Source of the DNA: Tribonema minus
Taxonomy: Eukaryota > Sar > Xanthophyceae > Tribonematales > Tribonemataceae
Length of the DNA stretch: 64,000 nt
Direction: 5' to 3'
Assembly: GCA_017506865.1 (NCBI GenBank)
Contig: JAFCMP010000024.1
Span: 806,001 to 870,000 of the forward strand
The position numbers were made by a program, and so were the translations under genes. Shown here piece after piece: positions 1-64,000 of this stretch. Below the pieces are notes generated by a model that saw only the letters and a program-made list of their open reading frames with translations, searched no databases and was not told the DNA's origin. Position 1 is the stretch's first letter. Each line of letters opens with the position of its first letter.

Positions 1-1729
1 GACGAAGCCGCCGTCGGCGTCGCAGCCCTTGAGCAGCACAAAGCGCGAGCTTGGGCGCCCTTCGGGCGTCGCCGTCGCCAGACACATGGCATTAGGGTCC
101 TGCCGCGGGGGGGGGGGGGGGGGGGGGGGGGGGGGCGTCGGGGGGGAGAACATCGCACGTCAGCACCGCCGTGGGTAAGCGTGGACTGGTGGGTGCTAAC
201 CCTAGCCCTAACCCTTACCAAAGAAGCACAGGCTCGGGCGCCCTTTGTCATCGTTGTCGCCAGGCACATATACGCGGCGTTCAGGTCGTGTGCGGGTGAG
301 GAGCGGCGAGGCGGCAAGTGTGATAAGTAGCAAAAAAGTCAAAACAACGACAACAACGCGCAGCTGCGTTGCCTCCAGGGCGCCGACAGCGCCTCACGCG
401 CGGTACGCACCGATCACCCCTGCCACACTTACTTCACTGAAGCATGATGCGCAGGCACGGTCAGGCTGCAGCTTCCGTGCAGGAGCAGTCACCAGCGTGG
501 CGCTGCGTGCCGCACGCGAACGCCGCTGGCGGTCATGAGTCATGACGCATAGTGAGCTGCACGTGCTTTGATTGTTCTGAGCGCTGTGACGCACATGCTT
601 GAAGCTGAAGTCGTGGGTCGAACCGGTTTCTCATCGATACGGGCCAGCGCGGGAGAGCCGCCGAGGAGCGCACAGTGAGCGGCACGTGCACACGCACACC
701 TGCAGCCCCGCGCACGTCGCGTCCGCCAGCCATATCTGAAACAGCTCGTGCACCACATCGCCTCAGAATGGTCAGATGCGGCGTTCCGATATCACGACAG
801 CGTCACGATGTGTCATGCACTCTGATGACGACAAGTACATACAGCTGGAAGCGACGCGCACGCACCTGCAGCCCGTCGCACATCGCGTCCCCGCTGAAAC
901 AGCTCCATCAGAGCGTGCCGCATTGACTAAGGATGTACACACACACACACACACACACACGCACGGCGTCCCAATGTTGCGACGTTGCGACGGCACACAT
1001 CCCATAACTAGTGCGTACAGCGAGCAGCGCGCGCGCGCAGACCTGCAGCCCCGCGCGCGTCGCGTCTGTGAGCCACGCCTGAAACAGCTCTTGCGCCGCA
1101 TCACCAGATATGACGGTACGATATCGCGACGGCGTCACGCCGTCATACACTGTGATGATGACAAGTACGGCGGCGAACGGCGCGCGCGCGCACCTGCAGC
1201 CCGGCGCGCATCGCGCCCGCCAGCCACGTCTGAAACAGCTCCTGCGCCGCATTGCCCCGGGCTCAGATGCGGCGCTGCGATATCGCGAGGACATCCCAGG
1301 GTCGTACATTGTGATGACCAGCGCATACAGTGAGCTGCGCGCGCGCACCTGCAGCCCGGCGCGTGTCGCGTCCGCCAGCCACGTCTGAAACAGCTCCATG
1401 GGGTCCCCCGGCGCGCAGCCCTCCTCCAGGGGGTCTGCCCTGTACTCCTCCCGCAGATCGGGCAGCGCAACCGCGCTTCCGTCCGGCGCTTGTAACGCCA
1501 TTCTAGCGCTGCCGAAACGGGCCCGCTGCTGCGCGAGCTTCAGGAGCGGCGTCCTCGCGGCAGTGCACAGGGGCGACAGTCGCACGGCGGCGGCGGCGAC
1601 GGTGCTGCAGGCGAGGGATGCCAGCATGGTGAGCACCAGCAGCAGCGGCGGAAGGGGAAGCGGCGCCTGTGGTAGCGGCGTGGCGGCGCGTGCGGTGCGG
1701 CGCGCTGCTGCCGCTGCTGCTGCGGGCAT
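1..1729 (-). CDS. PNPO: Pyridoxamine 5'-phosphate oxidase (PNPO/PdxH family), 5' part, cut by window edge
   Basis: Two exons are visible: 1349-1729 (127 codons, ATG at 1729) and 1-99, which continues beyond the window. They join in frame, CAG|GAC. The join gives [18 protein letters not shown] followed by [11 protein letters not shown], the FMN-dependent PNPO signature; just upstream lie [12 protein letters not shown] and [12 protein letters not shown], the usual start of the PNPO fold. The family oxidises pyridoxamine or pyridoxine 5'-phosphate to pyridoxal phosphate. The first 60 or so residues are Ala-rich with a hydrophobic run ([16 protein letters not shown]), so an organelle or signal presequence is likely; it lacks a clear plastid Phe motif. 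The 1249-bp intron holds several decayed copies of the exon 1 3' end and one of the exon 2 5' end. The identification is firm; the C-terminal half is off the window. Confidence 0.88.
104..136. repeat. Poly-G/C run at the PNPO intron acceptor
   Basis: An uninterrupted G run of about 29 bases on + is the C-rich pyrimidine tract just before the exon 2 acceptor on -. Similar C tracts precede acceptors across the window, for example near 12021, 26830, 32150, 46656, 48040 and 53767. Confidence 0.8.
222..278 (-). repeat. Decayed copy of PNPO exon 2 5' end
   Basis: The + strand text AGCACAGGCTCGGGCGCCCT followed by GTCGCCAGGCACAT resembles the live exon 2 segment at about 36-90 (AGCACAAAGCGCGAGCTTGG, then GCCGTCGCCAGACACATGG) with substitutions. 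It lies inside the intron upstream, in gene orientation, of the live acceptor, so it is an acceptor-side relic. Confidence 0.6.
540..1348 (-). repeat. Ladder of decayed copies of PNPO exon 1 3' end
   Basis: The live exon ends ...AGCTGTTTCAGACGTGG...CTGCAG|GTGCGC with its donor at 1348. The + strand block reading GCCAGCCACGTCTGAAACAG and CCTGCAGCCC, with varying damage, recurs with its CCTGCAG near 1193, 1042, 865 and 699, and a weaker trace lies near 551-570. Spacing is about 150-177 bp. Each copy keeps a donor-like CAG|GT but carries frame damage. Read as one frame these copies make a long spurious ORF. Confidence 0.85.
934..961. repeat. (AC)n microsatellite in PNPO intron
   Basis: About 13 AC units lie between two exon-edge relics. 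Simple sequence only. Confidence 0.9.
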
Positions 1730-3668
1730 CTGCGGAGTGATCGGGCATTGAGCGCAAGGTGTGCTAGTGAATGTGGAGGAGACGTGATATGTTACAAACT
1801 TATCTTCTACTGGAGTCAACTGGTGCAGATTGCAAGTCTTGCTCGCACCGCAATAGCATAGGGAAATTGCTTTCTTCCGCCTCTGAGGCTTGGTTTCAAT
1901 GGACTTCCGACGCAGCTGCAGCTTTCGCATCAATCTATGGATAGTTCCCGAACCTGAGCAGTAACGTGTGGGGGGAACTGAATTTAGATTATGCTCAGTG
2001 CACGTAAGCGCTGATAGGATGCCAGTAGATCTCAGTACCCTTCGCCTCGCCGCTTTTGATTTCTTTTGATTGCCGATGCTCACACATGTACAAAATGGCT
2101 TGTAGGATGCAATAGGTACCCTGCGACGTGGCTTGCTGAGAGCGCACACCGCTAGCAGTGACTGTGCAAGGTCTGACTGTGCAAGGTTTCTGCTCTGCTC
2201 GCATGAAAACCTGTGCTCCGTATTGATGTTCCTGCATGGCGCACAATAGCATGTCCGAATTACGTCCATTCACCTGCTGACAGTCGCTCTTGATCAAGTG
2301 TAGTACCAGAGCGAGCTACTGTAACAGAGTGCGGTCAGATCAACTTCTGCATGTGACCCTCCCCTCTTGAGGTTCGAATCACGGTGCTGAAGCTTCGAGA
2401 ATTTGTGTCGTTTCAAGTCTCGCACCTGCGGCGGCAAGCAGTCCGGATGCTCGTTTCGGTCGGCTTGGATCCAAAGCACACGACACCATGACCCAGAACA
2501 GGTGCCAGCCGTTAACGCAATGGCGGTGGCACCCGCTTACTTGTCTGCCGAAGCCCTCGTTCGAGCATACTGCGGTCGATGACTTTGCACGCCACGATCG
2601 ATAGTGCGCGGAAAGCCAGCCTGAAGAGTCGGCGGCGCTTTGCACGGTGTGAAACAGGTTTCAAAACACAAACACTAATGATCCGAGGATCTTTGACTCA
2701 ATCTGCTACATGTGCACTTGACAAGCAGCACCTGCCTCATGAAGTGTGCATGTCACAGCGGCGTCCAGCTCATGGTCGAAGTCAGTGTGTGGACGCGATA
2801 GCAGAGACGCTTGAGGCACCTGAGGAAGCGATTTGGGCCAGCAGCACAGACTCTCACGGACTTCAACAATTCTGAATCAAGGGCTATGCTGTCCACGTGC
2901 TGCAGTTGAAGCTGCCGCAGCATGATGTGTCGCACATCCACACACGCTGTATACTTACTCAAAGGCTGTCTTCAAGTACGTGTAGGCACTACTGCAGCAG
3001 TGGATGACTCAAGAGGCCCTGCGCTACGCTAAATACGACTGTAACAACACAGCGCACACAAACCGTTTGTTTAGGTCCGCACATCACCATAATAGAGTAC
3101 ACCGCCCCGCAAGTGAAAGCAAGTGAGACTAACTCAAAGGCATGCATAGCAGACACACGTAGCTTTTGCAGTGCGCTCAGCTGCAGCCATCACTTGAAGT
3201 TCATCATGATCAGCAGCGCAGTGACGGCATGCAACCAACCATCGCAGTTCAGTACAATGCATTTTTCATTGAACTGCCTCTCGCATGGGAAAACATGAAG
3301 TGCCACCGCCAGCAGCAAGAGCAGCAGCACAAAGCTTCATGCACTCAGCATCTATCTTTTCAGTGCCAATTACAGCGTGAGACAAAGTTACAACTGTCAA
3401 AGACAGCTTTGCTGGCAGTGCCACACGTTGTCAGTATTTGAGACCTAGACCACTCTGCGAGCAAGAACTTGCGATCGCCGCCCCACACTAAGTACACGCA
3501 ATCAATCGGATCAGTCAACCTGGGACAGTGAGGCTGGACTCGCCTTGTTTACCTGGAGCCGTCTGTGCTGGTACCGACTGGTGCGAGCCGCAGTTAGGCC
3601 AGCTGAGCCGTGCTCCGCCATACTCTCCTCTGCTCCGTTGCATGTAAGCCAGCGGCGACGATTCTGTC
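1730..3668. other. Intergenic stretch between PNPO and the armadillo-repeat gene
   Basis: I see no supportable gene. GC content is lower than in the exons. It must hold the PNPO promoter and 5' UTR and the 3' end of the armadillo-repeat gene. Short ORFs on both strands lack family motifs and splice context. Confidence 0.6.
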
Positions 3669-4844: not shown

Positions 4845-5599
4845 AGTTAATAGCCGACCCGGTTATGTGAAGCTGTCACAGGCTGCTTCGCGGCTGTCAC
4901 GACAGCCGCCCGATCAATGAAGCGTAGTGGGAGACAGGAACGGACTCGTTCGGCTTGAAAGAAGATTCAGTACACGTGATTAGGAGGAGTGAGAACAGCA
5001 CAGCGAAGTGCAGACCAGGTCACTGTTGCGCAGATGCTGCCCCACACATACTATGATACATACCGATCTGCGCACGATGTCTTTCTGCGAACGTCCGGTG
5101 CGTTTCACGTGAAAGCTGTGCGGCCACCGGCGCAGCAGCTTACCTCGACCTTCGGGCGTCGAAGCTCTGTTCTTATCCTCGAGAGCTGCTGGAAAGATCT
5201 GCTGCCAACCCCATCCGCAGGCTTGCTACCCCACATCAAACGAGACAGTTGAAGGTGAAGAGTTCATCTGCGAAACTCTCCATACCATAGCTCTTATTTA
5301 GCTCTGGCACAGTGCGATGCGGCGATAGGTGTGCCGTTGCCATCAGGGGCAATGACTGCGTTCCATTTGTTAATAACGACAGGCGTAAGCGCGTGCTGCC
5401 AGTGTATCGCGAGGGAGGTGTGGCGGCGCCAGAAGGCACGCGTTGCGCAAGATTGTAGCTGCCCTGCGAGCTCTGCTCGGCGAGTGCGTGTAGCAGCGCC
5501 GGGTGTCGCGTTACATAGCCGAAGTGGTCAAAGGCTGCGGAGAATGGTATGTGTAGTGGGGTCCAAGGCCTCTGCGACTAACATCTGTTCCTGTGAAGC
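4845..5599. other. Intergenic stretch, no gene seen
   Basis: This lies between the armadillo gene start and the retroelement remnant. Short ORFs only; nothing recognisable. It should contain the armadillo gene promoter. Confidence 0.5.
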
Positions 5600-9086: not shown

Positions 9087-12000
9087 ATGTTCATCAAGGC
9101 CGCTAGCGTTGGACTTCTGCTTACAAGGCAAGCAACAGCTTTCAACAGCATCGCGCAGGTACGAACACGGAGCCGCGAGTTACGAGTTTTTAGTCGCGAG
9201 GATCCGTCAGGAACTGTTGTGATGAGACCTGTATGGTTCGTCACGAGGTGCTTGCGCAAGTTTTTGCTAAATGGCACGAGCACTTTTGAACCCGTCCCGG
9301 CTTTCATCGTGTGTACACATCTGAGCCAGACGCTTGTAGCCTGAGCGTGATGATTTACGTCAACGTGTGCGTGCGCGCAGGTGTTCTCCTCAAGCATCAT
9401 TTTCCATCTCAAACTTGTAACGCGTCATCTCGTGTCGTGCTTGCAGGTTTCGGCTCGTACACCAGTCAAGTCAGCAGTAGCAGCTCTCAGGATGTCTACC
9501 AGCACCGACCAGTTCACTCGCGCGGACCCCTCCGCTGGGGAGCCGGGTGCCGCCCCTACGAGCCTCAAGTACCCTGGTCTGAGCAAGGACATGGAGACAA
9601 AACCAGACTACGGAGAGGACACGTACCGCGGCACTGACAGGCTCAAGGGCAAGCGCGCGGTCATCACCGGTGGCGACTCCGGTGAGTCTGGATCTGGGTG
9701 TAGTTGCTGTACGGTATTCTACACCTTTTGCCTAAGATCCACACGAAAATTTGGAGCCGAAAGCCTGCATAGAGTGCAACAGGTTGTAGCCCGAGCTTTG
9801 CCCTGGTTGCCAGATCAGTATCCAGCCGATGCTCAACACATGAGGCTTGCATCGCGTTACAAGCAAGCATAGCAACAAATATTGTTAAGGGATGTGTGAC
9901 CCTGCAACTTTTGTATACAACCCCCCCCTTTTTTTGCCATCTACACATTCACTCATCCTTGTCATAGAGTGCAGGCAATGTTGTTGCATTCTCGCACAAA
10001 CCTGTGTGCCCAGGGCATTGTCGTTGTCAGTTGCTATTTCGAAAGTACTGCTGAGTATGTCTTTGCAATATACAGGTAGCACTTCCTAATTGGACTCACC
10101 TTTCTGAGCGCTGCAAGTAAGTGACGCCTTCGCCTGTCAGCATGAGGCGCACATGTGATCATTAGCAATATACAACAAAAAATTCACTTCTATCCATGTT
10201 CTTGGGTTTGGCACTCTTGATTTCTCGTGCTTAATCTTAAAAAATCTTCCTGAGAATTGCAGGTATTGATTATGCGATCACCTCGCTTTTTCGTACGAGA
10301 ATTCTGACAGGCGGACATCTGCCTTGCACAGTCAATCATAAAAATCCTCTAGCACGAAGCTTGAAAGTATAATTTGAGACTTTCAGTTGATAGTTGCATG
10401 TGCTGATCTCCTCACCCTCGCTAAGCGCCCATTGCAGGCATCAACCGCGCCATCTTGCTCGCGCTCGCGTGCGAGCGTGCACACATCCTTTTTCATAAAG
10501 TGAATCACCAAGCCCTACAGAATTGAAGTCTCAGATGCACCTGGAGGAGGCAAGTAGAGGGACATGTTTGCATGTGCCATGTTCTCATCTGCACTGTGCA
10601 CTGCAGGCATCGGCCGCGCCATCGCGCTCGCCTTGGTGTGCGAGGGCGCGGATGTTCTCATCACATAGTGAAATGTTATGTGTTCCTAGACAACCGAAGT
10701 TCAATCATTCGCATGGAATAGAAGTCTTGTAGAAGTGCTTGCATGCACCAGCATTTTCATCATTACTGGTCGCTGCAGGTATCGGCCGTGCTGTCGCGCT
10801 GGCCTTTGTGCAAGAGGGCATGGACATTCTCATCATATGATGACTTTTCAAGTGATCCTAAAGAAATTCAATTAAAATTAAACAATGAACACGATAAACT
10901 TTGAAGTATAGTTGCATGCATTAATGATTCCATCATATTACTGGTTGCCGCAGGCATAGGCCGCGCCACTGCACTCGCCTTCGCGCGCGAGGGTGCGGAT
11001 GTCCTCATCAGCTACCTTGAAGTAGAGGAGGAGGATGCAAAGGAGACGGAGCGCCTGGTGAAGGACGCTGGCCGCAAGATTGTCAAGGTCCCAGGTGACA
11101 TCCGCAGCATCGAGCACTGTGAGAAGATTATCAGCACAGCTGTTAAGGAGATGGGCGGTATCGACATCCTGTTCAACAACGCCGGCTTCCAGGTGCGCTG
11201 TGGGCTGTTGCATGTGGCCTGTGTTGTTTGTTGTTGCGCTTGAAGTGGCATAGGGGGGCCCTTCCCGCTCTGAATTTGTTGTCTCATGAGGCGGCTACAT
11301 GGTATATGCCTTGAAACCTTGCCATTGATTGTTCTTGGAGGATCTCATTATAGTAATGATAGGGTTTGGTTTAGAGTTAGGGTGTGCCATGGCCACTGCA
11401 CATCAACCAGCTGTACCAGGTTTTCGCCTGCAGCAGTATTGCGTCTACCTGAATAGAGAGTTGGCGAAAGCCTGCCTGGAGCGCCGCTATCGCAGCGTTG
11501 CGCTCAGGTGACTATAGGTTATACTGAATGCTGATGACACCTGGTGCATGACACTCAACACATAGCAGCATGTCAACAGCTGCGCACTTGGTCTGCTGCC
11601 CCCTTCCCCCTACACAGATGCCCCAGGAGACCCTCATGGACATCTCTCCCGAGCAGTTCGACCGCACCATGAAGACCAACATCTACGCGCCCTTCTGGCT
11701 GAGCCGCGCTGCCATCCCGCACATGAAGCCCGGGGCCACCATCATCAACACGGCCAGCGTCTTTGGCTTCCAGTCGCCTCCCCTGCTGGTAGACTACGCC
11801 ACTTCAAAGGTGAGGTCACTGATATTTAAGTTGCGTTCAGAAAAGATCGAGAGCACTACAACCAGACAAGCATGATTTCAGAGGAGGAACACGCTTGTCA
11901 GTTGGCATGCGCTCGCCCCCTTAAGTGGGGCGGTCTGAAGACCACTGTCATGTGTTTCGCACACTTGCTTTTAACCACATCTCACCACTCATGTCCATCT

Positions 12001-13241
12001 TGTCTCCCAACACATCTTACCCCCCCCCCCCCACCAGGCTGCTGTGGTCAACTTCACCAAGGCCCTCGGCCAGCAGCTCATCTCCAAGGGCATCCGCGTC
12101 AACGCCATTGCCCCCGGGCCCATCAACACCCCCATGAACCCCGCCACGATGCCCGATGAGAACATTGAGAAGCTCGGCGCTGAGTCTCCCATCCAGCGGC
12201 CGGGGCAGCCTCGTGAGATGTCGCCTGTTGTGGTGTTCCTGGCTTCGCAGGAGTCGTCGTACATCACGAGCGAGGTGAGTCACTGAGTCACTGAATCAGG
12301 CTCCTGCAGTGAGTCACTGTAGAGGTGCGTGTATTGTTTAGTCAAATTTGGGAGATGTCGCCCGTCGTGGTCTTCCTGGCTTCGCAGGAGTTGTCTTACA
12401 TCATGAGCGAGGTGACTCACTTGCATGATTGAGTTGAAGTGGTGATACTCGAATCCAGGGTGTTGGACTCGAGCACGGAATGGTGCAATCCAGCAGTTGT
12501 TGCTGTACATTGCAAGTGAGGTGAGCCATGGTGATGATGCGTGGTCCCCTATCCAGCGGTTGGGGCAGCCCCCCAATATGTTCACCGGTTGTGGTCTTCC
12601 GGAGTCTTAGTACATCACGAGCAAGGTGAGTTGTGCTGCCCAAGTTTTGTACACATAGCAAACAGTTTTGTACACATAGCAAACAGATGTTGGTTTGTTG
12701 TCTGTTGAGATCTCGGATGACCTCTTAAGATTGTGAAAGGAGACTTGCTATTGTGGTGATGCCCAGTAAGCAAGTTGACAAAACGGCAAGTTCTATGTAC
12801 ATCTGCCACCTATCTCTTTCAACTTTCATTAGTCTTGTACACATCACTTGTGGTGGGTTGGTGTGATGACACTCTTGTGGTTGGTCGCTGAAAGTGTGGT
12901 CAGTGGTTGTGCACATACTAGATGCGTGGTAGCCACGCTTGTTGAATGGCAGGTGTTGAATACTTTTCTAACTCAGAACCCTGAGTGTAAAGCTGTTTTG
13001 GCAAACATAGGCAAAGGTCCAAAAAACATTCATGTGGAACGATGTGAGCGGCTGATACATTGACATGTGCAGCTGGCTGCACATGTTGCTGCTGTGGGTT
13101 GTCTCAAGAACTATACCATGATAACTTGTCATGTATCAACAAAGCCGCGGAACCTTGCATTGACCAATGTGTTGCTGCTTGTTACTGCTTTTGTTTGTGC
13201 ATCAGGTCATTGGCGCCACCGGTGGTATGCTCATCAGCTAA
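9087..13241 (+). CDS. Plastid-targeted short-chain dehydrogenase/reductase (classical SDR), 336 aa, six exons
   Basis: Exons: 9087-9158, 9447-9681, 10954-11192, 11618-11809, 12038-12274 and 13206-13241 (TAA). All junctions keep frame and all introns are GT-AG. The first exon encodes a signal-like MFIKAASVGLLLTRQATAFN, and exon 2 continues with a basic, Ser/Ala-rich transit region (SARTPVKSAVAAL). This is a bipartite presequence with Phe after the ATA cut, as in complex red plastids. The mature part resembles bacterial SDRs of the YghA/YhxC type: a lead-in with YPGLS, LKGKRAVITGGDSGIGRA (the TGxxxGxG nucleotide motif), GDI, NNAG, the IINTASVFGF serine, a YATSK catalytic Tyr/Lys pair split by intron 4, and APGPINTPM. 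It ends GATGGMLIS. It probably uses NAD(P)H on a sugar or polyol-like substrate, but the true substrate cannot be read. Confidence 0.9.
10060..10950 (+). repeat. Ladder of decayed SDR exon 3 acceptor copies, about 173-bp period
   Basis: The live acceptor is GCAG|GCATAGGCCGCGCCAC (10954). Upstream copies start at about 10780 (GCAGGTATCGGCCGTGCTGT), 10608 (GCAGGCATCGGCCGCGCCAT), 10438 (GCAGGCATCAACCGCGCCAT) and 10261 (GCAGGTATTGATTATGCGAT), with a faint one near 10076. The intervals are about 174, 172, 170, 177 and 185 bp. Each unit also carries a similar pre-acceptor text (TGCATGTGC...CTGCAG). The nearer copies match over about 65 bp, up to GATGTTCTCATC, and then hit stop codons. Confidence 0.9.
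12275..12640 (+). repeat. Decayed copies of SDR exon 5 donor end
   Basis: The live exon ends ACATCACGAGCGAG|GTGAGT (12274). Copies follow at about 12352-12415 (GAGATGTCGCCCGTCGTGGT... ATCATGAGCGAGGTGACTC), 12508-12525 (GTACATTGCAAGTGAGGTGA) and 12550-12630 (ATCCAGCGGTTGGGGCAGCC ... GTACATCACGAGCAAGGTGA). Each retains a donor-like GAG|GTGA but has indels. Confidence 0.85.
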
Positions 13242-15714: not shown

Positions 15715-15950
15715 CTGTCCATCAGTTTTTGATCGCTGTTTTACAGCAGGTGCGTAATGTGCGCTATAGGTGTCATCATTTGCAATGCATGGCAGGGCAT
15801 GGGTCTTACAAGAGACGCAGAGGTAGCTGTCTGTTGGTTTCAAGTTGCTGCTCTCAAGCACTTGTTTGTGTTGCTGAGAGAATCTGATGACATGCCAAGT
15901 TGCGGCTGTGTACTATGCATGAGCACTTGGTTGCACTCCAGTCGGGGCTG

Positions 15951-18987: not shown

Positions 18988-19052
<65 letters not shown>

Positions 19053-19215: not shown

Positions 19216-19317
19216 CTGCGCATGCACGCAAGGAGTGGCAAGGAGTGCTTGGTTGCTTTGTGTTGAGGTTGGAAGTAACAGTAGCAGCGAGTTCAAGCAG
19301 TTGATTTTGAAGTAACA

Positions 19318-19745
19318 GCAGCACGTGCGTCACGCCGCGCTCGCGCAGCCACTCGGCGTCGGCGGCGTCCTCCTGCAAGCGCGCGCGCGGCAGCGCTCGG
19401 TCGGTTAGAGTTGAAGTTGAACTTGGAGTAACAATAGCAGAGAGTGCAAGCAGATGAAATGAGATTTTGAATCATCAGCAGCACGTGCATCACGCCGAGC
19501 ATGCGCAGCCACTCGGCGTCGGCGGCGTCCTCCTGCACGCGCGCGCAAGGCAGCAGCACTCGGCCGAGAGTTCAAGCAGATCAAGTTCAGTTTGGAGAAA
19601 GAGTAGCAGAAGTTCAGGCCAATTAGGCTCAACTAGACGCCACAATGGCACGCGCGTGTGCGTCGCACCGAGCTTGCACAGCCTCTCGGCGCACAGCGTC
19701 CCCACACACGTATAGTCCGGCAGTGCTCAGACGGTGTATTGAGAT
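19318..19745 (-). repeat. Ladder of decayed DUSP exon 2 5' ends
   Basis: The live acceptor and exon start at 19215 (GCAG|GAGGACGCCGCGGATG). Copies start near 19373 and 19538, with a worn one near 19705. Spacing is about 158-170 bp. The first two still encode EDAADAEWLRE.GVTHVL and EDAADAEWLRMLGVMHVL and keep a CAG acceptor; the third is badly damaged. Confidence 0.88.
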
Positions 19746-51500: not shown

Positions 51501-54500
51501 CCGCGTGCGAGCGCGCGAAGATCGCGCTGTCGGGCGGCGACGTGGCAGCGGTCGCCGTGGAGGGGCTCGTCGCGGGCGTGGACTTCAACATCGCCATCGC
51601 GCGCGAGCAGTTCGAGGACATGTGAGCGCGCTCGTTTTTCGTTGAACGGTTCGGATTACGTCTTTTGTTCGTTGTTGTCCAAGCACGTGAGCGCGTGCTT
51701 TTTGTAGTAGACTATTTGGGTTCCTTCTATTGTTCGTTGTTGTCCAATCACAATCAATACTGCACCTGCCCTTCGCTTCTTGGCCGATTATTGCTTTAAG
51801 ATGTATTTGCTTTCAGGTGTACTTGCAAGTTCAATCGAAGCACTGATGTCTTCCGCTCTTCCATGCGCCGCACGTTGGACCCTCGATGTCAGCCTTATCG
51901 TGACCCTCACCGCAATCGGTTGGTGACTGAGCCCTCACCCTAACCCTACTTGAGGGCATCGGCTCCCTCCTCTTCCACCAGCACTGCGCTCTCGTGCATG
52001 CGCGCATCCAAGGAGCACAGCGAATGGCCTCTGTTGGGACGGGACCTGCATGCGCCTGCTAGTAGGGTTAGGGTTAGCCCCCTGAACTTCAGTCGGTCGC
52101 GGCGGCTTGCGCAATAAGCGAGGGCATATCTGCCTCTACCCCCACAGATCGGCGTGCGCGTGAGCTTGTGTTTCAATCACGGCGCTGTGCATCAATCTCA
52201 TTGGGTCTGTGTGTAGTCGACCTCGACCGGGACACCGGCGGCGTGTTCTGCGTAGGGCGACTCACGAGCAGCAACAGCACCGGACAATTGACATGAGATA
52301 CAAAGGCAGAAACCTTGGTTCCGCAGCTTTCAGAGATTTACGCAGGCCTGCATGAGCAGACGCAGCACTTGGCATCAAAAAATCACAGCGCGGCATTCAT
52401 GTATCACGCCCACAGGTAGGCACAGTGACCACTCCGCACAAGACACAGGTGCAGCCGCATTCTTGAAAATGCGCACAAGGCATCCATGTAACCGCGGCCC
52501 TAACCCCTGACACGCACCCTAATCGTACCCCCAATTGCTAGGCTGTGTGGCTGTCCGCAGGTTAGGCTACCCCTAACACTCACCCTAAGTGCGCGCCCGA
52601 CCGCAGGTGCATGGACCTACTTGTACTTCAAATGAAGTGTTTGTACTGGAAGCAGCTCCAATCACTAGTGCGACCTTCGATGTCACACCGACCCTGCCCA
52701 CGCCTGATGTCAATCTCACCCCTGGTTCTTACCTCAACTTCAACCCCCGCCGTGCTGTAGGTGCATGGACCTCTTCAAGCGCTGCATCGACCTCGTGATG
52801 CAGGCCATGGCGGACGCCAAGATGCAGCCGCAGCAGGTAGGGTCACCTAACCCTGCTTAAAGTGCACCCCAAACCCTTGTGCCAAAAGTGATGGTAGGGG
52901 CCCTCGCGCTCGAAGAAATGCCTCGGTGCCGCGCATAGCAAGTGCCACTGCATAGCTTCCACAGCAATCTCCCCCCCCCCTCCCCCCGCCCCGCTTGCCC
53001 TTACCCCCGCCCCCCTTGCCCTCACTCAACTCCTACCGATTCAGCAGCAGCGCGCCGTGAGCAGCAAGTGCCACTGCGCCGCTTGTACAATGCCCCCCGC
53101 CCACACACACTCTTCTCTTTTCAGTTGCTCTCTACCAGTAACAGTCACTGTGGCTCTGCTTACAGCCACTTAACAATATCATTCAAACATGAAACCACTA
53201 TCGTGACTTGGACCTGGATGGGAATTAGGCACTCGTCAACAGGTGCCACTATGCAGGCTTTGTTGTGAGCAGCCTTGTAACGTGTGGATGATAGTTCAAG
53301 CTTGCAGTGCTGATGTTGCAGTTATCCCCTTCTCCCTCAGGCTGCGACAGGGATCGTCTTGGTGCACTCAGGTTTTCGCAATACAGTCTTTGACTCCAGC
53401 TTCACCTGTGCTCCTCTTTTACCTCTCACTGGACCCCCTCGCTCCATCAGGTTCACAACATGGCTTTGCGTTTGGGGTCGTCCATGCTTACCACTACCCG
53501 TGTTGGTCGGTAAAACTTTGAGAGTCTGGGAGCCGTTACGCCCCCCCCGCAGGGCCATGAGGTTGTCCTTATGGGGGGGTTGCCCAGACTGACCGCCACT
53601 CGAGTCATACTCACTCGCTCTTCAAGTCTCCAACCCCCATGGAATCCCCCGCCCCCCCCCGGTCCACGAGATGGTGCTGATTGGGGGGTCATCCATGCTG
53701 ACCACCCAGTTCTTCAGGTTGTTATCTCAATCTAATGAGTGTGCGAGTCTCTGACCCCCTTGCCCCCCCCCCCCACAGGTCCACGAGGTGGTGCTGATGG
53801 GGGGGTCGTCGCGGGTGCCGCGCCTGCGCGAGATGGTGGCGGCGCTGTTTGTGCCCGCCGGCGCGACCATCAGCACCGCCGTTAACCCCGACGAGGGCGA
53901 GGCCATGGGCGCTACAGGCACGTTGAAGTTGAAGTTGGTGCGCTCGCCGTTCAGCGGCGGAAGCATCGCGATTGCGGACCATGTGTGCTGTCACGTCAGG
54001 CGCGCTGTGCTAAGTAGGTTAGGCGCGGATGTACTGCTGACTTCCGCAATGACCCCGCACTCGTCGCACATTCCACCACAGTTCAATGCCAGTTGCGGGA
54101 ACGCCCGAAGCGGCCTCCGCTGCTGCTAAATCCAGCCTACGCGATTCTGGCCCTATGCTAGCCTGGTTGAGCTTGTTTACGCGACTCCCATGTATATGTG
54201 AACATCTAACACAATAAACGCTCCGTGTGACGTTGCTGCTTCTAGAGCCAGCCTACATTTGTGCATGTGCTGGTGCTAACCCTAGTTACGCGCGATGTGC
54301 TATCCCCGGTGTATGCGGCCATGCTGGGGGGCATGATGTCCCCCGACCACTAAGCATACCCCTGTGCTAACCCTACTTACGTGCGATCTGCAAACCTCAG
54401 TCTACGCAGCCATGCTGGGGGGCAAGATGTCCCCCGACCTGGAGGACCTCCTCCTGCTCAACGTCACTCCCTTCTCGCTGGGCCTGGAGACGGCGGGGGG

Positions 54501-57500
54501 GCTCACGCACGTCATGCTCAACCGCAACACCAAGGTAGGTAGGCGTGCTCGTTATCAAGGTATGTAGGTATCTCAACGTCACCCCCTTCTCGCTGGAGAT
54601 GGCGGGGGGCTCAGCGCTCAGCAATAACAGGGTCTGTGCGTATGCTCAACGTCATGCATTTCTCGCTGGGGGATGGAGACGGCGGGGGGGGGGGGCTCAC
54701 GCACGTCATGCTCAACCGCAACCCCAAGGTAGATGGGCAAAATAGGCTATAGCAGGGTACAAATATGTATGCTCAAATCGACCTTGACCATGGACCCGCG
54801 TCTCGCTGCGCCTGCAGACGGCAGTGGCGCTCACACACGTAAATTTTGACGTCCGTGCCAGCACTCGCTGCTTGTCTGGCGCCCAAGCATAAGAAAACCC
54901 TGCATGCCCATTTGCTTCTTTGCACGAGAGGTGCGCTCTGAGCCTGCGCAGCATTGCCACCTGTAAACCGCCGTACCAAGCCGTACATACCGCATGCGTT
55001 GGATGCATTAGCGATCGCTTCCTACAGTGCGGCCACACATGACGACATTACGTGCGCATTGGCGTTGGCACGCCTCACCTGCTTGCCAGCTGCGCCCATC
55101 ACCATCGGCGCTCATTGGCCACTGCGCTTTCCGATGCATGCAGTCGCATCACCAGCGCGCGGGTACGCTCCCTGATGAACGCGATTGCATCAGTAGCGTG
55201 CGACTAGACGATGATGTCGCAGACCGCACTGCTCAGGTTGTTCTGCCGCTCCTGCCGTGCGTTTCTGACCAGGTTGTTCCGTCGCTCCTGCCGTGTGTTT
55301 CTGACGCGTCGCGCTGCCGCTGAGGTGTCGCGTTGCCATGCATACCTACCTACCTTCCCCATGCAGGTACCCGCGCGCCGCGTGCAGCTGTTCACCACGT
55401 GCTGCAAGGACCAAACCAGCGCCCTGCTGCAGGTGCGTTGTGTGCACAATGAACTTGAAGTTTGCACTTCAACGCTCTTTTGGCGGTGTCTTGTTTACAA
55501 TTGTACATATACGTGTATACGTGTTAAAGCTGATGTTCCCATTTACCGAATTGAAATGGATCAGGCACTCCAGACGTTAGATATGCTGCGCAGCAACCGA
55601 TTGCGTGTCCGAGCTCACAGCGCCTGCTGCTGGAAGCAGAGTACCGTGACCCACTGTACTCAGACGCCTATATTGATGAACGTGAATAGCAGCTGCAATC
55701 ACACTCGTTCGTGTGCGCCGCTGCGGGGTCCTAGGCTGGACGAGCCTTCTTCTGCGCTGTCCTGACGAAGCCGCACAAAGCCTTATCCTGCCATGCTGTT
55801 TTATCCTGACGAAGCCTTGTTTGCCATGCGCGCTGTTGACTGGACCGAAGCCTTCTGCAACAAAACGTCAACCTGACGAAGCCTCCTTTTTTGCCTACCG
55901 CGGCTTAGTAAGTGGACGAAGCCTGATTTGCCACAGTTAGTCTGACGAAGCTTTACCTGTCATGCGTTATGAACAACGATGCCTTATCGGCTATGAGGCG
56001 CGCGGTGATAGACCGACTTTACTTTTCAGCCGATGCAGCCAGTACTGCAAGTCGACGGTGGTCGGCAAAATTGCGCAAACGAGGGAGGGGCAAGGTTTCA
56101 GATAGGTTGAGCAAAGCGTGACTGACTGATCGTCGGTCCTGGACGAAGCCAGCCAGCACTGCAAGCGCAGTTGCCGAAGTGGCAGAGCGTCGGTTATCGG
56201 GTCGTAAATGGCCTTCCTCAGCTTTCCTCAGCTTTTGACCGACAGAAAGCCGAAAATCCCTAGTGTCGCTCTGGCCACAGGCGATGGCGCGAGCTCGCCA
56301 GTCGCGCATCTTAGTTTGCCCCTCATATAGGCTTAGTCTGAAGAGGGCGCCGCCTATCGCTGCCTAGTTCGTCCCATCAGGGGTAGTTGAGAAAGTCATA
56401 CATTCTCGTAAATCTGCCCCAGCGGCTAAGACCTAGGCTTTTCAAGCCTAGGAATATATGATACTTCGAAGTATCAGCAATTGTGTGCAATTCATGTATC
56501 AGACGTACAATCACTGACTTGATCGGGTCATCTGTAGTGCCGCACATGAAGCGCAAGGCACGCACGCGGCGCCAGGTGACGCGTCAAGGCGAGGCGACAA
56601 AAGTCGCGTACGCATGAGGCGGGCGTCGCCCCCTCATGTCATGCCTGTGCGCGCCATGACAGCGCGTGTCCACGCGTGCATGCACTTTACGGGCCTCTCA
56701 ACCGCAACTCCACTTTTTTAGAGTGCACCCTCGGCGCGGCTCGTCGTGCGAATGCGTAGGTGCTCTAGGGGGGGAGCGGGGCCTGCTCCCTAGGGGACGC
56801 GCGTGGCTGCAGCGCTCAGCAAATACATGCGTACGTATGTAGGTATGCGGGCCCGCACTTCGCATCGCCTCACAGCGCGACGCCACGCACTCAGAGCGCA
56901 GAGAGCGCGCGCGCCGCCGCCATGGCAGTTGCAGCATCGGTTTGTTCAACAGTTCGTGTTCGAACTCCTTTACGAAAGCACGCATGTATCTGCACGCTTC
57001 GCATGCCTCACAGTGCAACGGCGCACTCAGAGCGCACAGCGCGCACGCAGCTGCAAATGTGCAGGTGGTCGAGCGACGCGCGCCTGCTGGGGCGCGCGCG
57101 GCTGCAGCGCTCAGCAACTACGGGTGTACGCAAGTATAGTGGGTATGCACGCTCGCACTTCGCATGCGTCTCAGCGCAACAGCACACACTCAGAGCGCAC
57201 AGCGCGCGCCCCACTGCCGTGGTTATGCAGGTGGTCGAGGGCGAGGCGCGCCGCGTGTGCGACGCGCGCCTGCTCGGGCGCGTGCGGCTGCCGCTGCCGC
57301 CCGCGCCGGCGCGCGCCGCGCGCGTTGAGGTCGTCTTCGACGTCAACACGGACCGCGAACTGCGCATGCGCGCGCTGGACGTCACGCAGTGGGCCAAGCA
57401 GGCATGTCCACGGAAGGCTTGAACTCGGAGTTGAACACACGTATAGAACTATTGTTAGTTCGCTTTGTTTCGATGTCGACGCGGACCGCGAGCTGCGCGT

Positions 57501-58750
57501 GCGCGCGCCCGACGTCATGCAGCGGGCCAAGCAGGCACGTCCATGGGGCACTCTCAGAAGGCTTGAACTTGGAGTGAAAACATGGTAGGGCTGCTGTTGC
57601 TTGATGTTGAAGTTCAAATGACAAGAAAGGCGGCGAGGTGCGCTTGCGCGCACCAGAGATGTAACATAGGCGGCCAAGCAGGCACGTCGCAGGCACGTCG
57701 CAGGTTTCTCAACTTCACAAGTCAGTTTTTGGGCTGAATCGATTTGACACCATGAATGCGTTTGAAAACAATAATACAGGATCAATTGTCAGTGTTCTTG
57801 GCATCGACGCCACACTTTGTGTACGCCTGAACTGAAAGCAGCGCACTGCAGCGAAGCAGTGGGCGACATATTCGCTTGCGTTGACACAGAGTGCTGATCG
57901 TGCTGCATGTTGTGCGATGGGCAAAACAGCGAAGCAGTGGGCGACATATTCGCTTGCGTTGACACAGAGTGCTGATCGTGCTGCATGTTGTGCGATGGGC
58001 ACAGCAGAAACAGTATGCTCGCTCCTGAAAGGCCCAACACTATTTCCGACCGATGCATTTGTTCATTCACGTTCAGGATGGTAGGCGCTGGACCGCTTTA
58101 GAACATCCGGCCGAGACCTTCAAAACAGGTCCCAGCACTGCTGTTGCAGTTATGCAAGCGCCTCATGTCGTCACCAATTTCACGGAATGTTGGTGCCGCC
58201 CCTACCATGATCTTACATAGGGGGCTACAGCACCAGGGGGCAACTTTCTCATAGCATGGCAATCGTCAGCCCGAGATGCAGCAACAGTCGACAGCAGCCC
58301 TTGGCACTTTCAATTAGCACAGATGGTATGCGTGACGATCAGAATCAATGCCGCGCGTTTCACAATGCTGTGTTCATCTGCGCAATCGAACAGGCAGAGC
58401 AGGAGGGGCTCCAGCCAATGGAGGAGGAAGAAGAAGCAGCGGCGGCAGCGGCCGGGGGGGCAGGCCCTCCCACAAGCCGGGGCCCCAGCGAATCTGAGAT
58501 GCAGCACGAGGGGGAGCCCCCGGGGGTCTACCCCCCTGCTGAGGCCGAGGCGGAAACGGGCAGGAGGGCCCCCATGGAGGGGGGTTTCAACGCCGCGGGG
58601 AAGGGGGGGGGGGAGGAGGGCCCAGTGGAGAAGGGGGGGGCGGAGGTGGATCTGATGGTTAGCAGGGGGGGGACGGCATCGCTGCTGGGGCTGAGGGGTG
58701 ATGACATTGAGCCCCTCTCCGGGCAGGTCGCGGCGCCCCTGATTTAGGAA

Positions 58751-58782
<32 letters not shown>

Positions 58783-60562: not shown

Positions 60563-63478
60563 TCACTGGGGCGCACTGAAGGGGAGCGTTATGGGGGGTC
60601 CGAAGGGTCCGTTGCGCAGTATTCGTTCGAGCAGGTCCAGTGTGGGCTGGCCGAGAACGGCCCTGTGTGGACAGCGCATGATGCTCTCCACGAGTGAGAA
60701 CTTCCACTCCATCCCCTCCTGGCCGCCGACCTGTCAAGCGAAATGAAGAATTCGTGTGGCAGTTGTTGTGTGGCGCGTCCATGGGGTTGCACGCATCTCG
60801 GTGGCACCTGTTGAAGAGACCCGAGAGATGCGGTCTCGCTCCAAGAGATGCCGGCATCGCATGATGCTCTGCCCTGAGTGAGAATTCCCACACAAGTCCA
60901 AGAGGACTAAACTAAAGTGTATCGGCAAGCGTCTGGACATCGTCGGTGCAGCTGCATGCATCCCGCTCAACGATCAAGAAGATTTCATAGTGGTGGCACC
61001 CGTTCAGAGCACATGGAATGGCTCAACGAGTCGTTTGGAAGCTGAAAAGTGCAGAAGAGGAAGTGAAAGAAGTTGACAAGTTTGATGCGTGCACACACGC
61101 ATCGTGTTCACCGCCCCAGAACTACATGGCATGGCGATAGTCGACGTCTACGACAGCGACAACACTTTCGAGTGTACTCTCTTGAGATATTTGCTACTCC
61201 TGAAGTTAAAAAGCGTACTTTAACGGGCGACTCACGTCTACGTCGGTGCCCATGCCCGATGCCAGAAAATACGCGAGGCAACCGTAGGCCGTTGCCGAAG
61301 CCCTAGACCCTAACCCTAACTCTAGCCCTGACCCTGCTGCGCGCCCCTACAGTGCAACAGCGATTTATAATGCTTCCAAAGGCACATTCTTGAGAACTTC
61401 ACAGAGAAAGTACTATTGAAGTAGTACTGCAAGAGAGGAGACTCACGTCTACGTCGGTGTCCATGCCCGACGCCAGAAACACCACGAGGCCGTCGTAGGC
61501 CATTGCTGAAGCCCCAACTCCCTAGGCGCAGACCTAATCCTGCTGCGCGACCCTACAACTGCGACAACACTTGTCTAAAGGCACACTCGTTAGTTGCTTT
61601 TATATGATTATTGAAGTAGTACTGCAACAGAAGACTTACGTCCACGTCGGTGCCCATGCCCGATGCCAGAAACTCCACGAGGCCGCCGTAGGCCATCATA
61701 TCTTGCAGCGCCCAGCCCCCTCTCTGCCGCGCGCGAAGAGAGAGCATCGGAGGGAGGAGCGGCGGGCAGCGGCACGGCGCGCAGAGATTGGTGAGGACGC
61801 TGCACGTACTTCAAAGTACAAGAGCAAACACTTGAGGTTCAGTCACCAGCCCAGCCACGTAGGGAGCGTCGCAGCAAGCAGCGGCGCAGGGCACGAAGAC
61901 CTGGTGAGACCGTGTTGCATGTAAAGAGCAAACACTTGAAGTCGCCAGCGCCCGGTTGAAGTTCAGTCACCAGCAACGCGGGGGCCACAATGATGCTGTC
62001 AGCACGAGCAAGCCGCAGCTGCGCAGTGCTGACGCGCTGCGAGACACCTGATGCGCGGCGCAGCGCAGCACTCCCATGGCATCGCTCAAAGTACGCACTT
62101 CACTTTTTCTCTTGAGGTACATACAACAACAGCTCCGGTGGCAGCGCTCCGCCCCCCCTTCCTGGTGCGCGACGCAGCGCAGCACGCCCATCGCGGCGTC
62201 TACGCCCAAAGACTTCAAGTACTTGAGGTACTACTTGAAGTTATTCAAGGCACTGGAGGCAGCACTCATCCCCCCCTCACCTGGTGCGCGGCGCAGCGCA
62301 GCACGTCCATCGCGGCGTGGCGCGTCTCGGCGACCGGCAGCCGCACGAGCGCCATCAGCAAGCCCACAGGCGACGCAGACGGCGCCGCTGCCGCTGCTGC
62401 CGGCGCCGCCGCCGCTGCTGCCGCCGCGCCCTGCTGCTGCGCGTGCGCCTGTGCGCGGTCGTTGCAGCCGCCGAGGCGCAGCCACAGGCGGTGCCGCAGC
62501 TCGCTGAGCTCCTGCGCGCGCGAGAAGTTGAAGTTGATGTTGAGGTGACGCGCACCGGTGGAGAGTGAATTTGGGCCGGTGCACTGATGAGGCAAATCGT
62601 CAGTCTCCGCCCGCGATTCGCCCCGCACCGGGGTCGAGGTTCGCCTCGCGAATCACTGACAACATAAACCGCAATGGCATTGGGCCTGGGTGGCCGTGAT
62701 CCCCCCCCCTACATCTTGAGCGCGACGCAGCGGCGACAGCGCGGGGTGTGCACGCCGATCGGCTGATCGACCTGGGGTACCCGCGCTGCGTGGAGACCAA
62801 GGGGTACGCTACACACGCCGCGTGCTGTCAATCTAGGATGATTGGTGGAAGGCTTGCGGCCAACCACTCCTTGTCACCTAGAGCTCGGCGACGTTTTGAT
62901 TCGTTTAGGGTGAGGATCAGACGAGGGTTGCGGCGTGCTGTTTCAGATCACATCGCGCGCATCGCCTGGCTCATGGTGTTCGCCGTGCCCTACCTAACCC
63001 TAACCCTAGCCCTAACCCTAACCCTAACCCTAGCCCTGCGTCCCCCGTGACGCCCCGCAAGACGAACAGGGGGGTCTGCAGGGCCCGCCTCGCCACGCGC
63101 GTCAACATTTTCAAGGACAGGGGGGGGTGGCGACCCCAGTCCTCTTCTCGCCCACGTACACATGCGTTGTTGCGTTGAATGGTGCTTGTAGTGGTCATGA
63201 ATATCGTTGATATGATTGGTACATCATCCAGCTCTCCATACCACAAAGGGGCCCACTGCGCCTGAAACTTCTGCCCGGAGAGCACCCCTAGCTAACTGTC
63301 GCACCCCCTTCTAGCACGTCATACTCGTGCTGCAGCCCCCAAGCCTGTGACTCACGGTATCCGCGGCGTCCGATCTTCCGACGCGCGCGTCGGGCGCCGG
63401 CGCTTCTTCAACTTCAACTTCAATATCCGCCGCGCTGGTCTCGCTCGCGTCGCTGATCATCTCGCCGGTGCGCTCCGC
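60563..63478 (-). CDS. PSMD5: 26S proteasome non-ATPase subunit 5-like chaperone (PSMD5/S5b), 3' exons
   Basis: Firm exons on -: 62281-62511 (ELSELRHRLWLRLGGCND, an Ala-rich loop, then VGLLMALVRLPVAETRHAAM and DVLRCAAHQ), 61640-61723 (RGGWALQDMMAYGGLVEF, then LASGMGTDVD) and 60563-60730 (GGQEGMEWKFSLVESIMRC, then ILRNGPFGPPITLPFSAPQ and TGA). All join in phase 0. The order 'VAE.R.AAM.VL.A.A.Q', 'GLVE', 'K...VE.I', 'GPF' mirrors the end of human PSMD5, a HEAT-repeat chaperone for assembly of the proteasome base. An acidic exon at 63356-63478 (GEMISDASETSAADIEVEVE) has good splice sites and may belong to it. The 5' end is unresolved or outside the window. Relics fill the introns. Confidence 0.72.
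60820..60900 (-). repeat. Decayed copy of the PSMD5-like last exon 5' part
   Basis: The + text GCATGATGCTCTGCCCTGAG, then TGAGAATTCCCAC copies GCATGATGCTCTCCACGAGT, then GAGAACTTCCACTCC of the live exon (60677-60712), about 185 bp upstream in gene sense. Confidence 0.8.
61210..61520 (-). repeat. Two decayed PSMD5-like donor ends
   Basis: Live + strand text ACGTCCACGTCGGTGCCCAT, then GCCCGATGCCAGAAACTCCA and CGAGGCCGCCGTAGGCC (61638-61693) recurs at about 61447-61502 and 61228-61285 with growing damage. Spacing is about 190-215 bp. Both keep the GACGT(G)AGT-type donor. Confidence 0.92.
62040..62205 (-). repeat. Two decayed PSMD5-like exon donor ends
   Basis: CCTGGTGCGCGACGCAGCGC, then AGCACGCCCATCGCGGCGTC (62161) and CACCTGATGCGCGGCGCAGC, then GCAGCACTCCCATGG (62047) copy the live CACCTGGTGCGCGGCGCAGC at 62278. 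The period is about 115 bp. Confidence 0.92.
62992..63040. repeat. Interstitial telomere-like tract
   Basis: About seven units of CCCTAA with a few CCCTAG. Others lie at about 190-218, 28553-28700, 29272-29312, 33950-33976, 34254-34322 (GGGTTAGGG sense), 51150-51180, 52060-52080 and 61308-61322. Confidence 0.9.
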
Positions 63479-64000
63479 CTGCGAGACACACGCGGCAGAG
63501 TTACGTGGAAACGACTCAAAGGATCGTACAGCTCTAGGTGACAACGTGCAGTTGGCCGCCAGTGCCTTCCACGAATGACCGTCGTTGCCGCTGCTGCGGC
63601 AAGCGTATCCCGTCGTCTTCGCGTGTGGTCATCGTTACAGCGTATGCCAACGCCGTCCGGAGGTGCCATCTGCGGCTTGCAACGGCACGCGTCCCGCAGT
63701 TTCTGCGTCCGCATCTCTGGGGTATCACGGTCATCCACGGCGCTCCCACGCCAACAGCGCAAGCTCATTGGAACGACGAGCACTTTTCAGGGGTTCAAAT
63801 TGGAGCGACGATCAGACCGGCATGACGGCCGACGGCGCACGGATCGCTATCACTGCGACATTGGCCGCAGGGAGGGTGAACGCCCGGGGCGCGTGACTGT
63901 GCTCACGGATCACCGCAAAATCAGGCGCGCGAGAGCTGATAGCATGCACTGTGCGTGACTTGCGCGTCCAAAGCGGCGGCCCCTGCGGAGTTGGGCCAGT
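63479..64000. other. Window end, no firm gene
   Basis: Upstream (gene sense) of the possible PSMD5-like acidic exon. Several overlapping ORFs exist on both strands but none has a motif I recognise. Confidence 0.4.

Follow-up and report, generated by a model that had tools for sequence, protein, structure and literature searches.

To our knowledge, the lengthening of introns without transposons is poorly understood. A 64 kb stretch of the Tribonema minus genome (contig JAFCMP010000024.1, positions 806,001-870,000; hereafter the window) bears on this problem, as a first-pass annotation held that its introns are built from ladders of decayed copies of the gene's own exon edges. The question is whether such copies are real, how they are arranged and decay, and which process could have produced them. 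Our literature search found no description of exon-edge copy ladders that lengthen introns.

Exon-edge copies in the window and on other contigs

The sample comprised 190 introns with 380 exon edges, including 133 introns from a purpose-trained gene finder, whose predictions supply most of the exons, and 57 introns from nine chaperonin loci. Predicted exons shorter than 30 bp or scoring below 5, chaperonin-set exons shorter than 40 bp, introns outside 120-3000 bp and gene predictions scoring below 20 were excluded before counting, and one chaperonin locus, at which just a single live exon survived gene finding, was left out. A copy was called when the adjoining intron matched the edge with a score of at least 38. 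As controls, edges were compared with introns of other genes (1,900 tests) and with the intron on the wrong side (107 tests). The far exon is doubtful for a few of the window's introns.

Exon-edge copies proved to be real and to extend beyond the window, as they were found in the adjoining intron at 94 of the 380 edges, whereas introns of other genes were matched in 2 of 1,900 tests. Within the gene-finder set, copies accompany 27/133 donor and 25/133 acceptor edges (0/665 and 1/665, respectively, in controls with other genes' introns), and they occur both in the window with its flanks (27/110 edges) and on 20 other contigs (25/156). The chaperonin set demonstrates copies at 27/57 donor and 15/57 acceptor edges (control 1/570). 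Counting by repeat families gave 112 of the 380 edges and 217 copies. The initial claim that donor-side copies always lie downstream and acceptor-side copies always upstream of the live splice site was nearly right, wrong-side matches amounting to 2/107 overall, with 2/65 in the gene-finder set and 0/42 in the chaperonin set. Correctly sided copies were also seen by eye, as neighbouring overlapping matches among the matches listed, at three or more chaperonin loci and two or more kinesin loci; no edge copies were noticed by eye at HSP70 and myosin loci among the matches listed. Two HSP70 paralogues outside the window had no internal repeat in the five predicted introns of each and, neither of them having ladders, are uninformative as a before/after comparison.

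Within the window (Table 1), the CysRS gene spans positions 25555-36276, and exons 1-8, joined by hand, match the public T. minus protein P0001 with 100% identity. The Hsp70-like gene lies at about 45.5-54.5 kb. Among the 38 queried edges of these two genes, 13 are matched by a copy in the adjoining intron at a score of at least 39, and the remaining 25 score 29 or less, four of the latter having had wrong coordinates, as is evident from the splice sites at these positions (in CysRS, the acceptor of exon 9 and the donor of exon 10; in Hsp70, the acceptor and donor of exon 8). The names Hsp70, SDR, PNPO and DUSP are presumptive, having been read from motifs.

Table 1. Live exon edges in the window and their copies (window coordinates).
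Feature	Positions	Strand	Live edge	Details
CysRS exon 4, live, own copies on both flanks	28707..28808	+		in protein P0001
CysRS exon 4 start, acceptor-side copies	28409..28631	+		pairs 28409-28631/28513-28743 (76%), 28455-28514/28687-28743 (90%)
CysRS exon 4 end, donor-side copy, full 132 bp head-to-tail unit	28866..29000	+		pair 28734-28864/28866-29000, 84%
CysRS exon 7 start, acceptor-side copy	31970..32098	+	32197	pair 31970-32098/32108-32245, 84%
CysRS exon 7 end, donor-side ladder, ~five copies	32470..32983	+	32378	spacings 165, 248, 387, 494, 598
CysRS exon 8 start, acceptor-side copy	33315..33354	+	33438	92.5% over 40 bp
CysRS exon 8 end, weak donor-side copy	33752..33789	+	33577	score 41, 82% over 38 bp
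CysRS exon 9 end, donor-side copy	34707..34797	+	34616	89% over 91 bp
Hsp70-like exon 1 end, donor-side copies	45867..46259	+	45778	spacings 101 to 391 bp
Hsp70-like exon 2, donor-side ladder	47023..47644	+	46931	spacings 178, 316, 506
Hsp70-like exon 3, donor-side ladder	48430..48926	+	48300	copies 48430-48471, 48556-48596, 48894-48926
Hsp70-like exon 6 start, acceptor-side copy	50524..50598	+	50730	93% over 75 bp; mostly unrelated on the intron side
Hsp70-like exon 9 start, acceptor-side copy	53625..53693	+	53779	81% over 69 bp
Hsp70-like exon 10 start, acceptor-side copy	54273..54348	+	54410	86% over 76 bp
Hsp70-like exon 10 end, donor-side copies	54572..54840	+	54534	
SDR exon start, acceptor-side copies	10430..10835	+	10954	
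SDR exon end, donor-side copies	12352..12631	+	12274	pairs 12215-12284/12352-12421 (90%), 12184-12280/12544-12631 (73%); outside counted introns
PNPO-like exon end, donor-side ladder	667..1242	-	1349	spacings 155, 306, 491, 649
DUSP-like exon start, acceptor-side copies	17668..18105	-	17579	
DUSP-like gene, acceptor-side copies	18765..18980	-	18684	
DUSP-like gene, acceptor-side ladder	19320..19691	-	19215	spacings 168, 317, 490
Unnamed gene, donor-side ladder	22410..22971	-	23011	spacings 102, 402, 497, 590
Unnamed gene, acceptor-side copy	22109..22183	-	21884	87% over 75 bp
Predicted exon, unnamed gene, donor-side copy	57469..57688	+	57405	71% over about 220 bp
Predicted exon, unnamed gene, donor-side copies	62045..62199	-	62281	

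An artefact of assembly or annotation is a highly improbable source of this pattern. Most exons do come from the gene finder and some introns in the window have the doubtful far exons mentioned above, but the copies are ~10% diverged from the live edge and carry frameshifts, and the pattern persists on unrelated contigs and where the exon positions are set by the public protein or by Pfam matches.

Arrangement and decay of the copies

Between one and seven copies were counted per edge, one more at the upper end than first proposed. At least three copies are present at 32/380 edges, compared with 7.7 under a Poisson distribution, and copy number rises with intron length (rho 0.34). The smallest spacing per family has quartiles of 101, 128 and 168 bp (80 families of the gene-finder set, spacings up to 300 bp), close to the 105-190 bp that the first-pass annotation gave as common. 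Edge-anchored families make up 19.0% of the sampled intron bases and are present in 86/190 introns, so that describing the introns as built from ladders is an overstatement. As had been proposed, the copy nearest the live exon tends to be the best preserved (27 of 46 ladders, against ~17 by chance), and average divergence is lower for nearer copies. Copy-to-copy distances are 1.39-1.54 times the distances between copy and live exon, where ~1.6 would be expected if all copies came from the live edge. Most copies derive from that edge, and the members of a ladder look as if each had been derived from it independently.

Frameshifts were found in 39/194 copies and stop codons in 6/194. Among single-base codon changes, 405/777 are silent and 372/777 alter the amino acid, with 130 multi-change codons set aside; in the chaperonin set the silent fraction is 0.59, above the simple neutral expectation of 0.40. 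The ratio of exon-part to intron-part divergence is 0.62 (bootstrap 0.54-0.75, 57 pairs) and 0.55 (0.45-0.61, 58 pairs), compared with ~0.625 expected for a free copy next to a constrained live exon, the chaperonin ratio being just under the neutral value. Judged from these sequence comparisons, the copies are probably dead relics left by tandem duplications that spanned the junction, because they combine frameshifts and amino-acid changes with roughly unconstrained divergence wherever they can be aligned. It is very unlikely that they function as alternative, mutually exclusive or poison exons: many copies retain their splice dinucleotides (GT in 90/113, AG in 60/66) and 28 were called as exons by the gene finder, but the frameshifts and amino-acid-altering changes argue against such a role, and the public CysRS protein P0001 contains none of the CysRS exon copies. 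The 28 copies mistaken for exons are also a warning for annotation.

The intron part of the duplicated unit is less well preserved. Near full-length head-to-tail units account for 24/224 live-copy pairs, the other 200 consisting mainly of the exon part, and in the gene-finder set the alignment crosses the junction and takes in at least 25 intron bases in 60/128 pairs. Gap columns per site are 0.115-0.131 in the intron part versus 0.018-0.038. Identity is ~0.88 in the exon and drops to 0.51-0.58 at intron bases 7-12, a steeper fall than in simulations (0.56-0.72, with lower exon identity). Among 35 copies with exon identity of at least 0.95, a fraction of 0.49 keeps homology 30 bp into the intron, compared with 0.89-0.92 simulated; among the 75 copies whose 20 exon bases are at least 95% identical, a fraction of 0.53 lies beside unrelated intron, compared with simulated fractions of 0.21 (85 cases) and 0.33 (36 cases). 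Such near-intact exon copies beside unrelated intron, being commoner than simulated, imply that simple tandem duplication followed by neutral decay is an incomplete account.

The steep fall in identity, the 200 pairs short of full length and the shortened homology into the intron would fit copying of some exon edges without their neighbouring intron, or gene conversion in which the live exon refreshes its copies, so that copies look younger than the surrounding intron. We nevertheless consider this distinctly unlikely: divergence is near neutral where the intron part aligns, full-length units exist, and intron sequence carries many more gaps and may simply vanish faster than modelled. A few pairs had also raised the suspicion that the copies are under selection or converted by the exon; pooled over pairs, the divergence ratio lies close to neutrality, yet the junction drop is steeper than simulated.

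Junction excess and the proposed course of duplication

Local repeat families are concentrated at exon-intron junctions, where 109/151 (0.72) are anchored, against 0.30-0.44 in 18 simulated settings. Families with at least three repeat pairs number 43 at edges and 5 inside introns, whereas simulations gave about equal numbers or fewer at edges, and young full-length units lie at junctions in 26/34 and 21/27 cases. The first-pass annotation had proposed checking whether matches are commoner at exon edges than elsewhere, and the outcome favoured its claim: repeats cover 21.3% of the exon sequence that lies no more than 60 bp from an internal junction, compared with 4.6% of deeper exon (introns, 16.5-21.8%; unassigned sequence, 10.2%). 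The junction excess over random duplication carries caveats, however. The strict chaperonin subset gave just 17/27 (p 0.018) and the youngest class 5/8, which is not significant. With exons masked, the near-edge share was 17/57 within 5 bp of an edge (0.24-0.27 simulated) and 28/57 within 15/25 bp (0.30-0.37 simulated).

It is fairly unlikely that random local tandem duplication operates alone, with no junction bias, duplications that span a junction being neutral and staying visible longer because selection keeps one copy. The masked counts and the chaperonin subset lean that way, and introns are repeat-rich away from edges as well, but the junction share, the families with three or more pairs and the young full-length units all speak against it. 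None of the simulated variants reached the observed edge share of 0.72. Random tandem duplication with one-sided decay gave 0.36-0.41 in four settings and 0.40 in two, and repeated events with deletions gave 0.31, 0.34 and 0.37. A ratchet model, in which homologous exchange was added and any deletion that would join a decayed copy to the live exon was selected against, was not enough by itself (0.34-0.44 in five settings), its edge-to-interior counts of families with at least three pairs being 4:4, 6:9, 6:6, 3:7 and 4:5 versus 43:5 observed. Exchange without the ratchet gave 0.31-0.42 in three settings, and a single setting with neither gave 0.30; the deletion, exchange and ratchet simulations were small, with 60 to 200 introns per run and no search of parameter space.

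The best explanation is probably serial head-to-tail duplication across exon-intron boundaries, with decay of the swallowed copies. DNA spanning a boundary, mostly about 100-170 bp long, would be duplicated head to tail, repeatedly at one boundary. After a donor-side duplication the first donor would still be used, and after an acceptor-side duplication the last acceptor, so that the protein would remain unchanged while the new edge copy is absorbed and the intron lengthens. This continued use of the first donor and the last acceptor is the presumed reason why the copies are neutral and tolerated. Being unconstrained, an absorbed copy would decay. A further duplication of the live edge would then insert a new copy closer to the live exon than all earlier copies, producing a ladder. 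Individual introns may well have grown in this way.

The excess at junctions may arise because exon edges are hotspots of duplication, or because exchange is seeded anew by a live exon that never decays. As a tentative possibility, the junctions themselves are hotspots, a junction-tied process continually copying the live edge into the intron, which would grow outward and gain decoy splice sites; transcription, splicing and exon-anchored exchange are examples of processes that might act there. Repeated duplication at one junction, as the first-pass annotation proposed, is supported by the distance ratios, the 43 versus 5 families, the rise of copy number with intron length and the splice dinucleotides still recognisable in the copies, whereas a mechanism separate from ordinary local tandem duplication is at most a possibility, since introns are repeat-rich overall and the junction excess is much smaller with exons masked.

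Under serial duplication across boundaries, the history of an intron's growth would be legible in the intron itself and could be dated. The live exon serves as an unchanging standard, against which it becomes possible to measure how fast introns lengthen and what happens to fresh splice-site copies.

Comparison with known systems

Introner elements are families in which one element is copied to many genes. Introners, treated in PMC9860276, resemble the T. minus ladders as a process altering many introns of one genome. They form one family across genes, whereas each T. minus copy comes from its own gene's exon edge, and edges matched introns of other genes in 2 of 1,900 tests, which compared edges and not intron interiors. 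Tandem exon duplication and mutually exclusive exons place exon copies side by side in direct order, as do the ladders. Unlike duplicated exons, the T. minus copies are partial edges, up to seven per edge, with the frame broken in a fifth; their frameshifts, stop codons and silent share depart from the kept frame and mostly silent changes of duplicated alternative exons.

Intron gain by tandem duplication of exon-bearing DNA is a demonstrated route in other organisms (Hellsten 2011; Gao and Lynch 2009, as cited in PMC4974935 and PMC3443670, the latter presenting it as shown). This route has in common with the T. minus ladders a local tandem duplication and a coding sequence preserved by splice-site choice; it creates a new intron with mutually copied ends, whereas in T. 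minus existing introns appear to be lengthened repeatedly and their ends are unmatched. That the introns studied here were themselves born by duplication of exon segments, or from introner elements, is scarcely plausible: the donor junction resembled the intron's own acceptor junction at a score of at least 38 in 3/188 introns (control 0/188), with a best in-register identity of 0.48.

Minisatellite-like tandem arrays share with the ladders direct repeats of ~100 bp in rows; unlike them, the ladders are anchored at live junctions, irregularly spaced and mostly copied from the live edge. Direct repeats at exon-intron borders also occur in the cases covered by PMC11782384, where short repeats of 4-30 bp between an intron's two borders are interpreted as insertion marks. 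Brown algae, which are relatives of T. minus, have introns that are unusually long given their compact genomes, with a median of 524 bp on the autosomes of Ectocarpus (PMC12477816). If junctions are indeed hotspots, the ladders would represent a way for introns to grow that differs from transposon insertion, from introners and from random duplication.

Exon-edge copies and their controls

Tribonema minus is a xanthophyte (yellow-green) alga whose assembly comprises 158.18 Mb in 554 contigs, the window being bases 806001–870000 of contig 24. Comparing the window with itself revealed numerous strong direct repeats separated by a few hundred bases. Eight exons of the window, when joined, encode a CysRS protein with 100% identity to a public T. 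minus protein, and all introns with correctly placed ends are of the GT-AG type, with one probable exception, GC-AG, in the Hsp70-like gene. Among 38 queried edges of these two genes, 13 are copied in the adjoining intron (score at least 39), and the remaining 25 score at most 29, four of them (CysRS exon 9 acceptor and exon 10 donor, Hsp70-like exon 8 acceptor and donor) having been queried with mis-set coordinates, as is evident from the printed splice sites.

Two larger sets of introns were assembled. For the gene-finder set, a predictor trained on the CysRS and Hsp70-like genes was self-trained on the window and 22 10-kb loci of the same genome; once 28 predictions duplicating a better neighbouring exon had been removed, along with very short or low-scoring exons, 201 exons remained as live, together with 133 introns 120–3000 bp long. 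The chaperonin set was built from PF00118 matches at ten loci, nine of which yielded 57 introns; the Pfam match confirms many of its exons, not all, and 26 introns have both exons confirmed. In the gene-finder set, copies scoring at least 38 were found at 27/133 donors and 25/133 acceptors, against 0/665 and 1/665 when the same edges were compared with introns of other genes, and 2/65 when an edge was compared with the intron on the other side of its exon. The chaperonin set has copies at 27 donors and 15 acceptors (control 1/570, wrong side 0/42). Thus, the first-pass annotation, which described introns built from ladders of decayed copies of the gene's own exon edges and splice sites, was right about the copies: present at 94 of the 380 pooled edges, they are a real feature of this genome, found on most sampled stretches carrying well-predicted multi-exon genes. 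By edge-anchored repeat families, 112/380 edges have copies, 217 in total and one to seven per edge. No ladder was found in either of two HSP70 paralogues, L033 and L034, each with five predicted introns.

The edge-anchored families occupy 29,196 of 153,677 intron bases (19.0%). Mean copy number is 2.28 in introns of 1,000–3,000 bp and 0.48 in those of 120–400 bp, which is only a correlation, because longer introns have more room for copies. Repeats also lie elsewhere, covering 16.5% of the intron sequence more than 200 bp away from any junction and 10.2% of unassigned sequence. Other features noted are listed below; two of the three telomere-like tracts lie within CysRS introns.

Coordinates of individual features (window positions unless a contig is named)
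Location	Strand	Observation
3669–4862	minus	397-codon open frame with armadillo-like matches; long for a single exon here
7001–7540	minus	weak RVT_1 reverse-transcriptase match (E 0.0001, below curated cut-off); perhaps a decayed retroelement
18990–19051		perfect (GCA)n, about 20 units, adjoining a ladder-bearing exon
about 28600–28700		telomere-like CCCTAA/TTAGGG, far from contig ends
34253–34293		as above
62993–63037		as above
53917/53918		probable GC-AG intron, Hsp70-like gene
57849–58001		two 78-bp tandem units in a predicted intron, 100% identical, one whole-genome match; therefore a very recent intron-interior duplication
contig 522, 954301–958200		L033; inverted HSP70 pair with L034, about 25 kb apart, 84–89% identity through aligned introns
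contig 522, 981301–985200		L034
contig 179, 221650–223642		HSP70 gene; first piece matches with a score equal to that on contig 90; perhaps a recent duplication
contig 90, 846742–848762		HSP70 gene, as above

Decay of the copies and probable growth of ladders

The ratio of exon-part to intron-part divergence, in pairs aligned through the junction, is 0.62 in the gene-finder set (57 pairs; bootstrap 0.54–0.75) and 0.55 in the chaperonin set (58 pairs; 0.45–0.61), the latter just below the (1+0.25)/2 = 0.625 expected for a free copy beside an exon accepting about 1/4 of changes. Frame-shifting gaps occur in 39/194 copies and stops in 6/194. Silent changes make up 405/777 single-base codon changes (0.48 and 0.59 in the gene-finder and chaperonin sets, respectively); the expectation of 0.40 assumes that all changes are equally likely, and the true one is higher because intron changes are skewed to transitions (956 vs 727). 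Therefore, the copies are not maintained as coding exons, though the chaperonin silent fraction is rather high. GT persists at 90/113 copied junctions and AG at 60/66, which we do not read as selection, since pairs placeable at a junction favour retained sites.

Within ladders, the ratio of copy-to-copy to copy-to-live distance is 1.39 for neighbours (94 pairs), 1.54 for copies two apart (46) and 1.53 for those three apart (16), about 1.6 being expected if each copy derived independently from the live edge. The nearer copy is the less diverged throughout (0.094 vs 0.107, 0.077 vs 0.105 and 0.070 vs 0.106, respectively), and in 27/46 ladders the most similar copy is the nearest one. Copies per edge are over-dispersed, with at least three at 32/380 edges vs 7.7 expected; certain exon edges are hot for copying. 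The best explanation for these patterns is serial tandem duplication spanning exon–intron junctions, after which the duplicated edges would decay without constraint.

Some observations are at odds with simple tandem duplication. Only 24/224 live–copy pairs are near full-length head-to-tail units. Of 75 exon copies nearly intact over 20 bp, a fraction of 0.53 adjoin unrelated intron sequence (0.45 when only the 38 nearest copies are taken); two simulations gave 0.21 (n = 85) and 0.33 (n = 36). Intron sequence may be lost more quickly than the model allows, exon copies may be refreshed through exchange with the live exon, or some of the copying may take only the exon edge.

Probable preference for junctions

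Local repeat families within introns fall into two classes, those anchored on a junction and those interior to the intron. The former account for 61/84 families in the gene-finder set and 48/67 in the chaperonin set (109/151 in total), 28/38 on 20 other contigs, and 15/19 in the CysRS, Hsp70-like and SDR genes, the last count including one family with a far "exon" (33762) that is itself a copy, and two families from a 2.7-kb intron for which the far exon (57231) may be part of another gene. Across 18 simulated settings the junction share was 0.30–0.44: random tandem duplication gave 0.36–0.41 and 0.40, deletion with repeated events 0.31–0.37, and runs in which homologous exchange and a selective ratchet (selection against deletions fusing a decayed copy to the live exon) were included or omitted 0.30–0.44. 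Families with at least three repeat pairs number 43 at edges vs 5 inside, and young full-length units, judged by their intron part, are junction-anchored in 26/34 and 21/27 cases; the youngest class (5/8) is not significant. Two results speak against a bias: junction-anchored families number 17/27 in the strict chaperonin subset, and the near-edge share with exons masked is only 28/57 vs 0.30–0.37 simulated. Of the 42 interior families, 15 reach into the junction zone as well. A preference of duplication for junctions beyond random is thus probable, not proven.

Comparison with known processes

Our library search, which covered a minority of subscription papers and not the one on the T. minus genome, turned up no published description of exon-edge ladders in introns. 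Short direct repeats of 4–30 bp near intron borders are reported in PMC11782384, and the nearest parallel found is an 83-bp tandem duplication within a potato intron that left gene structure unaltered (PMC4974935). When an exon segment bearing AGGT is tandemly duplicated, a new intron can arise whose ends are mutual copies (Rogers 1989; Hellsten 2011; Gao and Lynch 2009, as cited in PMC4974935 and PMC3443670). In T. minus, the donor junction matched the acceptor junction of its own intron in 3/188 introns, with in-register identity never above 0.48. Duplication-born introns are newly made, whereas in T. minus existing introns would be lengthened.
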